From contig NZ_WWIA01000591.1 in the NCBI RefSeq assembly GCF_009870065.1, positions 1-34,597 on the forward strand: 34,597 bases of DNA, read 5' to 3'. Positions 23,055 to 27,835 of this stretch are shown here, one piece after another (position 1 is the first letter of the stretch; every line of letters starts with the position of its first letter). The DNA comes from Streptomyces sp. SID5785. Its GTDB lineage: Bacteria > Actinomycetota > Actinomycetes > Streptomycetales > Streptomycetaceae. The translations under genes were made by a program, and so were the position numbers. The notes beneath the pieces are model-generated. The model made no database searches, was not told where the DNA came from, and worked only from the letters and a program-made list of their open reading frames with translations.

Positions 23055-23393
23055 GTGGCGCAGCGTGTCGTGGTCACTCTCTTTGACGACATCGACGGCG
23101 GAGAAGCGGCGGAAACGGTGGTCTTCGGTCTCGACGGCAAGTCGTACGAGATCGACCTGAACCAAGCCAATGCGAAAAAGCTCCGCAAGGTCCTCGCCCC
23201 GTACCTCCAGGCCGGGCGCAAGCAGGCCGGCGCCGGAGGCAGGCCTCCCAGGGCCCTGACCTCGTACAAGCACACGGCGCTGAGCCCCGACCCGGCCGCC
23301 GTGCGCGCCTGGGCCCGCTCGCACCGGCTCGACGTGCCCCCGCGCGGGCGGATCCCGAAGCGGGTCTACGAGGCCTTCGCCGAGGCCAACTGA
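23055..23393 (+). CDS. lsrL: Lsr2-family nucleoid-associated protein (LsrL-type paralogue)
   Basis: 112 residues, GTG at 23055 with AGGGA upstream. Lsr2 proteins are xenogeneic silencers that bridge AT-rich DNA. The N-terminal dimerisation domain is clear (VVVTLFDDIDGGEAAETVVFGLDGKSYEIDLN), followed by a flexible linker and a C-terminal DNA-binding domain with the RGR minor-groove motif in PPRGRIPKRVYEAF. Streptomycetes have two Lsr2 proteins, and the one next to purS is the paralogue called LsrL, hence the symbol. An in-frame upstream ATG (22968) is rejected because the conserved family start is MAQRVVV. Transcribed away from purS and toward the tRNA-Gly genes. Confidence 0.9.
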   Translation: MAQRVVVTLFDDIDGGEAAETVVFGLDGKSYEIDLNQANAKKLRKVLAPYLQAGRKQAGAGGRPPRALTSYKHTALSPDPAAVRAWARSHRLDVPPRGRIPKRVYEAFAEAN

Positions 23394-23480: not shown

Positions 23481-23511
23481 TTGCGCTGCACCCCCGCGAG
23501 TCGGCTAGAGT
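23481..23511 (+). promoter_or_regulatory. candidate promoter of tRNA-Gly(UCC)
   Basis: TTGCGC (23481-23486) and TAGAGT (23506-23511) are separated by 19 nt, 51 nt upstream of the tRNA. The hexamers are good, the spacing long. Confidence 0.4.
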
Positions 23512-23562: not shown

Positions 23563-23634
23563 GCGGGTGTAGTTCAGTAGTAGAACATCCCCCTTCCAGG
23601 GGGAAGGCGCAGTGTGCAATTCCTGTCACCCGCT
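23563..23634 (+). tRNA. tRNA-Gly (anticodon TCC) with aberrant D and T loops
   Basis: The 72-nt acceptor stem GCGGGTG/CACCCGC is perfect, the discriminator is T and the anticodon stem TCCCC/GGGGA is perfect around CTTCCAG, anticodon TCC. Bacterial glycine identity positions (G1-C72, C2-G71, U73, C35, C36) are all present. The D loop reads AGTAGTA, with A where conserved G18 should be. The T arm is abnormal: GTGC replaces GTTC (G55 in place of U55), and the stem pairs only if one T (23613) is bulged, giving G-U, C-G, A-U, G-C and G-C. The tRNA-Gly(GCC) 80 nt downstream is fully canonical. This matches a special-purpose tRNA; a decaying gene is the alternative. Confidence 0.85.
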
Positions 23635-23713
23635 CCGCATCGCGTACCGACCACCTCTCGGGGTGCGGTAGGCTGGTGCTCGCGCCGATCGGTGAGAGCC
23701 GGTCGGAGGCAAT

Positions 23714-23786
23714 GCGAACGTAGCTCAGTTGGTAGAGCGCAACCTTGCCAAGGTTGAGGTCGCGAGTTCGAACCTCGTCGTTCGCT
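23714..23786 (+). tRNA. tRNA-Gly (anticodon GCC), copy 1
   Basis: A 73-nt cloverleaf. Acceptor GCGAACG/CGTTCGC, D loop with GG, anticodon stem CAACC/GGTTG around TTGCCAA (GCC), T loop TTCGAAC, discriminator T. Identical to the copy at 27757-27829. Confidence 0.96.
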
Positions 23787-23792
23787 CCATTT

Positions 23793-23920: not shown

Positions 23921-24904
23921 ATGACCAGCAACGAGCGCGTGATCGACGTCACTGATCTGCGCCGCGTGTACGGGGACGGCAAGCGCGGCACTTTCGAGGC
24001 CGTGCGCGGAGTCAGCTTCTCCGTGGGCCGCGGCGAACTCTTCGCCCTACTCGGTACCAACGGCGCGGGAAAGACCTCCACCGTGGAACTGCTCGAAGGG
24101 CTCGCGGCGCCCGCAGGCGGGCAGGTCCGGGTGCTCGGGCACGACCCGCGCACCGAACGCGACCTGGTGCGGCCGCGGATCGGCGTGATGCTCCAGGAGG
24201 GCGGGTTCCCCAACGAACTGAGCGTCCTCGAGACCACCCGGATGTGGGCCGGCTGCACCAGCGGCGCCCGCCCGGTCGACGAGGCCCTGGAGATGGTCGG
24301 GCTCACCGGCCGCGCCCCGGTCCGCGTCAAGCAGCTGTCCGGCGGCGAGAAGCGGCGGCTCGACCTCGCACTCGCCCTCATCGGCCGCCCCGAGGTGCTC
24401 TTCCTCGACGAACCGACCACCGGACTCGACGCCGAGGGCCGCCAGGAGACCTGGAACCTGGTCCGCGCCCTGCGCGCCGAAGGCACCACCGTGCTGCTGA
24501 CCACGCACTACCTGGAGGAGGCCGAGGAGCTCGCCGACCGGCTCGCCATCCTCCACGAGGGACGGATCGCCGCCGCCGGCACCGTCGACGAGGTCGTCGC
24601 CGCCCAGCCCTCGCACATCTCCTTCGAGCTGCCCCAGGGGTACTTCGTGGGCGATCTGCCGCCGCTCGACCGGCTCGGCGTGAGCGGGCACGAGGTCGTC
24701 GGCGCCACCGTGCGGCTGCGCACCGCCGAACTCCAGCGGGCCGCGACCGGACTGCTCGTCTGGGCCCGGGACGCGGGCGTGGAGCTGCGCCGGCTCGACG
24801 TGCGGGGCGCCTCGCTCGAGGAGGCGTTCCTGCGGATCGCGCGGGACGCGAAGCAGGAGGCCGCTCCCCGGGGCGGCGTACGGGAGAAGGAGATGGCGCT
24901 GTGA
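23921..24904 (+). CDS. ABC transporter ATP-binding protein
   Basis: 327 residues, ATG at 23921. All nucleotide-binding motifs are present: Walker A GTNGAGKTS from G45, Q-loop in MLQEGG, signature VKQLSGGEKRRLDLAL, Walker B EVLFLDEPTTGLD and switch histidine in LLTTHYLEEAEELADR. The C-terminal ~90 residues form the extra domain seen in ABC-2 drug or lipid export ATPases. It drives the permease encoded next, and the two genes overlap by four bases (GTGA). First gene of a four-gene operon-like group with a histidine kinase and response regulator. Confidence 0.95.
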   Translation: MTSNERVIDVTDLRRVYGDGKRGTFEAVRGVSFSVGRGELFALLGTNGAGKTSTVELLEGLAAPAGGQVRVLGHDPRTERDLVRPRIGVMLQEGGFPNELSVLETTRMWAGCTSGARPVDEALEMVGLTGRAPVRVKQLSGGEKRRLDLALALIGRPEVLFLDEPTTGLDAEGRQETWNLVRALRAEGTTVLLTTHYLEEAEELADRLAILHEGRIAAAGTVDEVVAAQPSHISFELPQGYFVGDLPPLDRLGVSGHEVVGATVRLRTAELQRAATGLLVWARDAGVELRRLDVRGASLEEAFLRIARDAKQEAAPRGGVREKEMAL

Positions 24905-27756: not shown

Positions 27757-27829
27757 GCGAACGTAGCTCAGTTGGTAGAGCGCAACCTTGCCAAGGTTGA
27801 GGTCGCGAGTTCGAACCTCGTCGTTCGCT
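27757..27829 (+). tRNA. tRNA-Gly (anticodon GCC), copy 2
   Basis: A 73-nt tRNA identical at every base to 23714-23786. The identity runs on into the following CCA-like TCCA but stops before the terminators, which differ. The two copies bracket the ABC/two-component module. Confidence 0.96.
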
Positions 27830-27835
27830 CCACAC

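Follow-up and report, generated by a model that had tools for sequence, protein, structure and literature searches.

A conserved tRNA-Gly(UCC) of Streptomyces with an altered elbow and a bulged T stem, a candidate for glycine transfer outside translation

Structure of the locus and of the tRNA gene

The window, i.e. the whole stretch of DNA analysed (34,597 nt of Streptomyces sp. SID5785), contains two tRNA-Gly genes located between lsr2 and an ABC transporter gene: an unusual tRNA-Gly(UCC), referred to below as the odd tRNA, and a canonical tRNA-Gly(GCC), whose position downstream was confirmed by ARAGORN. The features of this region are presented in Table 1.

Table 1. Features of the odd tRNA locus and other tRNA calls in the window
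Feature	Position	Strand	Remarks
lsr2	23055-23393	+	Synteny marker; Pfam Lsr2 98.4 bits; precedes the odd tRNA in 76 of 79 named loci
Weak -35-like TTGCGC	23481-23486	+	19-base spacing to TAGAGT
Putative -10 box TAGAGT of the odd tRNA	23506-23511	+	Similar box in relatives
Odd tRNA-Gly(UCC)	23563-23635	+	73 nt without CCA; RF00005 53.5 bits; own covariance model (R1) 101.9 bits, the model being built from 24 sequences that include this one
A18 replacing G18	23579	+	A in 21 and G in 3 of 24 distinct sequences; 19 of 20 further copies also have A (L450, among these 19, lacks one base and was assigned by visual inspection)
A51 (23611) paired with U63 (23624), bulged U at 23613	23611-23624	+	A51-U63 in 24/24, bulge in 24/24
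G55 replacing U55 (GUGC)	23616	+	Co-varies with A18; no mixed type in 150 listed matches and 20 further copies
-10-like TAGGCT of tRNA-Gly(GCC)	23669-23674	+	
Canonical tRNA-Gly(GCC)	23714-23789	+	ARAGORN; GCC tRNA downstream in 79/79 testable named loci
Second tRNA-Gly(GCC)	27757-27832	+	Identical copy, about 4 kb downstream
tRNA-Arg(TCG), ARAGORN call	24436-24518	-	Inside the ABC transporter gene, without Rfam tRNA match; looks false

The RF00005 score of the odd tRNA lies above the cut-off of 29 bits and places it among the tRNAs, while its normal GCC neighbour scores 71. ARAGORN did not call it in the window; several close relatives were called. Reading of the sequence bore out the coordinates and bases given in the initial annotation (A18, G55, GUGC at positions 53-56, and a T stem that needs a bulge and a G-U pair), as well as the perfect acceptor (7 bp) and anticodon (5 bp) stems; the D stem (4 bp) is also perfect. 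The anticodon is UCC, U73 is present, and the D loop AGTAGTA provides A18 and G19. The T arm is composed of G49-U65, C50-G64, A51-U63, G52-C62, a bulged U and G53-C61, closing the loop U54 G55 C56 A57 A58; without the bulge, two of the five positions are paired. The G18-U55 elbow and the unbroken five-pair T stem of a canonical elongator are therefore absent. The T loop GTTCRA occurs in 53 of the 55 ARAGORN calls of the SID5785 genome (a draft of 7.49 Mb in 1157 contigs; completeness 93, contamination 6.9), the two exceptions being a second odd tRNA-Gly(UCC), which lies on a different contig, and the Arg call in the window, which is probably false.

The odd tRNA folds better than its shuffles (z -3.19), and its minimum-energy fold contains a small hairpin, GCGC-AGU-GUGC, where the T arm is expected. 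When the odd T arm was folded alone, the best structure (-1.3 kcal/mol) was not a T arm; canonical arms gave -4.5 to -6.6 kcal/mol. The bulge is thus predicted to weaken the T arm.

A -10-like box was found 30 to 110 bases upstream of the odd tRNA in 58 of 75 named loci, and in at most one of the 75 in each of five control windows, which lie further upstream, largely in lsr2 coding sequence, and so differ in composition. With a slightly wider motif, the box was located 54 to 59 bases before the gene in 67 of 78 loci. Such a box also separates the odd and GCC tRNAs in 74 of 80 loci (a count made without control windows). These motifs suggest that the odd tRNA is transcribed from its own promoter. 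No expression or charging data and no earlier report on this tRNA were found in the literature searched (subscription papers lay outside its scope).

Conservation and distribution

A strong relative of the odd tRNA (best match with an E value of 3.5e-17 or better) is present in 198 of 199 genomes of the genus, and in 72 of them, SID5785 included, the identity is 100% over at least 73 nt of the 74-base query (hand count). The places listed in this search reach down to 93% identity, and four weaker ones (L031-L034) were read. The exception is genome G157, where the best match shows 74% identity and no tRNA was found at an lsr2 locus. In G157, and in G224 of the family set, the sole full-length GCC match found sits in a Gly-Cys-Val tRNA cluster and not at an lsr2 locus; the absence of the odd tRNA from these two genomes may reflect assembly gaps.

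Gap-free alignment of 24 distinct sequences revealed eight pairs changed on both sides in the acceptor, D and anticodon stems, with 99.8% of pair cells standard. The T-stem bulge occurs in all 24 (one base earlier in L163) and the bulged T-stem cells are paired in 99.2%, but no T-stem pair has changed on both sides, and so this stem is supported by invariance and not by covariation. The following are invariant in the 24 sequences: (i) positions 1, 2, 71 and 72 (columns G1, C2, G70 and C71), U73 (T72) and TTCC, which upholds the assignment of glycine identity bases, C35 and C36 among them, (ii) the 3' T strand CCUGU and (iii) G19, U54, C56 and A58. The A51-U63 pair is also present in all 80 named loci, whose selecting pattern required A51. 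At 49-65, 20 of the 24 sequences have G-U, as does the window, and four have A-U. The initial annotation had allowed for a pseudogene confined to this strain. This reading, like that of a strain artefact, can be discarded, since the stems bear the compensated changes of selection and 72 of the 199 genomes share an identical copy; the changes are kept across the genus and in most of the sampled genera of the family.

The alignment also bears on the hairpin of the minimum-energy fold. If this hairpin replaced the T arm, the gene could specify a regulatory tRNA-like RNA that senses or signals. A precedent is tRNA-Other of Bacillus cereus, likewise a conserved tRNA-like gene that does not belong to the usual set of elongators, whose deletion alters the cell wall according to PMC3399842; that RNA, with its Trp anticodon and poor charging, is part of a regulatory transcript, whereas the odd tRNA keeps full Gly identity. 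Fold computation favours the hairpin over the cloverleaf for three of four sequences with A18/G55 and for neither of two with G18/U55, and G55 supplies one of the hairpin's pairs. However, pairing is found in 92.7% of the hairpin cells and in 99.2% of those of the bulged T stem, a lineage in which the hairpin is broken keeps A18/G55 (L173, L178; L447-L450), and the 3' T strand is invariant. The fold energies themselves decide little, because L034, L173 and L165 have minimum-energy folds that correspond to neither the hairpin form nor the cloverleaf. We consider a regulatory function quite improbable.

A18 accompanies G55 in 21 of the 24 distinct sequences; the other three (L165, L166 and L175, of genera g2 and g5) have the ordinary G18 with U55, and the T-stem bulge is already present in them. 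A pattern with any base at positions 18 and 55, in which other bases such as A51 were fixed, matched 303 of 384 family genomes. The 150 listed matches comprise 146 with A18/G55, four (all g5) with G18/U55 and no mixed type (hand count), in agreement with the earlier remark that both elbow partners change together. The 81 family genomes that did not match belong to g14 (70), g11 (3) and other groups (8). Six of these last eight gave BLAST matches, all with A18/G55 and the bulge (L450 being one base shorter), and no odd tRNA was detected in G224 and G326 by pattern or BLAST. Fourteen additional copies were read, comprising 13 with A18/G55 and one with G18/U55 (L451, genus g2). By parsimony, the bulge is likely to have arisen first and the elbow swap second.

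The odd tRNA type was found only in the Streptomycetaceae. The covariance model built from the 24 sequences assigns at least 91 bits to members and at most 75 bits to canonical Gly tRNAs. When applied to 394 genomes of the class, it scored all 40 members of the genus at 96 bits or more, with a gap from 96.2 to 78.5 bits among the matches listed, and none of the 354 genomes outside the genus exceeded 78.5 bits among these matches (12 candidates scored per genome; matches listed down to an E value of 1.9e-16). The exact signature of the odd tRNA was absent outside the genus in 296 class genomes. Named records with A18/G55 (at least 118 stretches, 80 of them listed) originate from Streptomyces, Streptacidiphilus, Actinacidiphila and one unclassified actinobacterium. 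A plasmid- or phage-borne odd tRNA was also considered and rejected, no copy being found in either collection at an E value of 1e-5.

Tandem odd tRNAs, two to four in number and spaced by about 113 to 119 bases, are present in several streptomycetes and relatives (L290, G692, G776, G799, G897, G212, G286 and G330; spacing of 158 in G330).

No match to the odd tRNA was obtained in genera g14 (70/70 genomes) and g11 (3/3). Eleven of these genomes were searched for the locus and ten loci inspected, the eleventh (G337) being cut by a contig end. In all ten (L410-L413, L415-L419, L423), a TAGAGT box and then two GCC tRNAs come after lsr2, and therefore a normal GCC tRNA occupies the place of the odd one. 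A difference in cell-wall type (meso- versus LL-diaminopimelate) as the cause of the loss in g14 was set aside: PMC6113628 gives DL- and LL-diaminopimelate with galactose for both Kitasatospora, to which g14 might correspond judging by genus size, and Streptacidiphilus, and one Streptacidiphilus genome (G258) keeps the odd tRNA.

A second odd tRNA-Gly(UCC)

The second odd tRNA-Gly(UCC) of the SID5785 genome (G000:C489:19590-19660; L101, L131) has a TGCAA T loop (G55) and an A51-U63 pair, but contains G18G19 and no bulge. It was matched in 25 of 61 genomes of the genus, with up to five copies per genome, and in 134 places on 69 plasmid records (including the plasmids L439-L444), the highest number on a single plasmid in the 20 listed records being eight; the plasmid gene table contains no RNA genes. 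None was found in the phage collection. Of 32 copies, 22 have a -10-like box 43 to 52 bases (about 47 nt) upstream, whereas a box at any position was present in 5 of 64 control windows; 21 of the 32 copies have a perfect inverted repeat of 8 bases or more downstream. This tRNA looks like a dispersed promoter-tRNA-terminator unit, and it deserves a study of its own.

Possible role of the odd tRNA

The initial annotation had recognized that the odd tRNA might be the only UCC tRNA of its host. This reading is eliminated by a canonical tRNA-Gly(UCC) in the SID5785 genome (G000:C459; L060/L132, 1966-2037) and in 149 of 150 family genomes, a count that relies on matches of which few were read as sequences; the only genome without such a match is a draft (G324). 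For the decoding of GGA, the odd tRNA is therefore redundant. The canonical Streptomyces tRNA-Gly(UCC) shares with it the anticodon, the acceptor ends, the four-base variable loop and G49-U65, but has G18 G19, U55, G51-C63 and no bulge, and the odd gene is a separate locus. All of the canonical Gly tRNAs that were read (UCC and GCC of SID5785, CCC of three relatives) contain G49-U65, C50-G64 and G51-C63.

The odd tRNA could still be an elongator for GGA and GGG, i.e. a divergent second UCC isoacceptor in which A18/G55 is tolerated and the bulge is neutral. This is consistent with an anticodon stem maintained by compensations, the invariant loop TTCCA, the retention of G19, C56, U54 and A58 in all 24 sequences, and the ordinary GCC tRNA in its place at the ten g14/g11 loci. 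However, a canonical UCC tRNA is nearly always at hand and g14 manages with it; moreover, neutral changes should drift, yet the bulge is kept in 24/24 sequences and A18/G55 in 146 of the 150 listed matches. We regard this explanation as rather unlikely.

A GUGC T loop is also a feature of the wall tRNA-Gly of Staphylococcus. According to PMC4052509, the non-proteinogenic tRNA-Gly species of S. aureus, which feed FemX/A/B, have replaced G49-U65 by A49-U65 and G51-C63 by A51-U63, and their positions 18-19 read UU or CU. The likeness to Staphylococcus pointed out in the initial annotation holds for redundancy, the Gly identity bases (with a UCC anticodon), the altered elbow and the weak EF-Tu pair A51-U63. 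It does not extend to G18G19, of which only position 18 is changed, nor to the strong G49-U65, which is mostly kept (20 of 24 sequences), and the odd tRNA was not classified with the S. aureus kind for these two reasons. In addition, its T stem has a one-base bulge and its use by FemX is only a candidate one. Its origin is presumably separate, since the type was found only in the Streptomycetaceae. By analogy, the odd tRNA may nevertheless work as the S. aureus kind does, as a charged but EF-Tu-shy Gly-tRNA.

The elbow and the T stem are broken, conservedly and in the same manner, which suggests that the glycine is carried for something other than protein making, possibly for the cell wall. 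It is probable that the odd tRNA is a specialised, largely non-translational tRNA-Gly. In the mechanism that we propose, the odd tRNA, expressed from its own promoter, would be charged by glycyl-tRNA synthetase, as the kept Gly identity bases and U73 lead us to infer; U73 shields Gly-tRNA, including non-proteinogenic species, from DTD (PMC6097841). The bulge, the weak A51-U63 pair and the lost G18-U55 contact would make it fit EF-Tu and the ribosome poorly, and its presumed escape from EF-Tu would maintain a pool of Gly-tRNA that is available for non-translational transfer. The most likely recipient would be FemX, which would use this glycine for the bridge in the LL-diaminopimelate wall; antibiotic enzymes of the Fem type would be secondary users. 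We give this proposal as a whole slightly less than an even chance. It retains, of the initial suggestion of a non-translational donor, what the conserved and coupled elbow, the canonical UCC tRNA beside it, the promoter-like box and A51-U63 speak for; a link to FemX was not found, and no genomic association with any fem gene was seen.

FemAB (PF02388), to which the candidate user proteins belong, gave a match in 149 of the 150 family genomes, among them 38/38 sampled g14 and 3/3 g11, with 2 to 8 matching stretches per genome where present (two may share one protein). Its presence is consequently uninformative as a correlate of the odd tRNA; the draft genome G219 has the odd tRNA and no FemAB match. 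Since g14 and g11 lack the odd tRNA and keep FemAB, FemX does not need this tRNA in them. Glycine bridges are also found in other actinomycetes, and no class genome outside the genus exceeded 78.5 bits among the matches listed, which argues against a wall role. A non-translational role is further opposed by the maintained anticodon loop, G19 and the predominant G49-U65: a purely non-translational tRNA might not need such a loop, although glycyl-tRNA synthetase reads C35 and C36.

The glycine might alternatively be destined for a user other than the wall enzyme, either the Fem-like enzymes of antibiotic synthesis (Orf11 of BD-12, DhpK) or an unknown transferase. The multiple FemAB-matching stretches per genome are in keeping with this, but the antibiotic pathways are accessory, whereas almost every sampled genome of the genus has the odd tRNA. 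Enzymes of this sort, dependent on Gly-tRNA, have been described in actinomycetes (PMC12945691). We judge an exclusive user of this type to be improbable.

The diversion of aminoacyl-tRNA from protein synthesis to such transferases is described as unclear in most instances in the review PMC4052509. We tentatively suggest, with more reserve than for the mechanism itself, that a private, non-translational Gly-tRNA channel evolved independently in the Streptomycetaceae, through the bulge and then the change of G18-U55 to A18-G55, yielding an EF-Tu-ignored donor for FemX, and that the mobile second cassette, carried by Streptomyces plasmids, may also supply this channel. Many products of Streptomyces depend on Gly-tRNA, and the FemX of this genus is essential. 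The natural intermediate (bulge with a normal elbow, in g2 and g5) and the clade in which the odd tRNA is replaced constitute a ready genetic test. If true, the odd tRNA would be a second answer, of different construction, to the problem solved by Staphylococcus.
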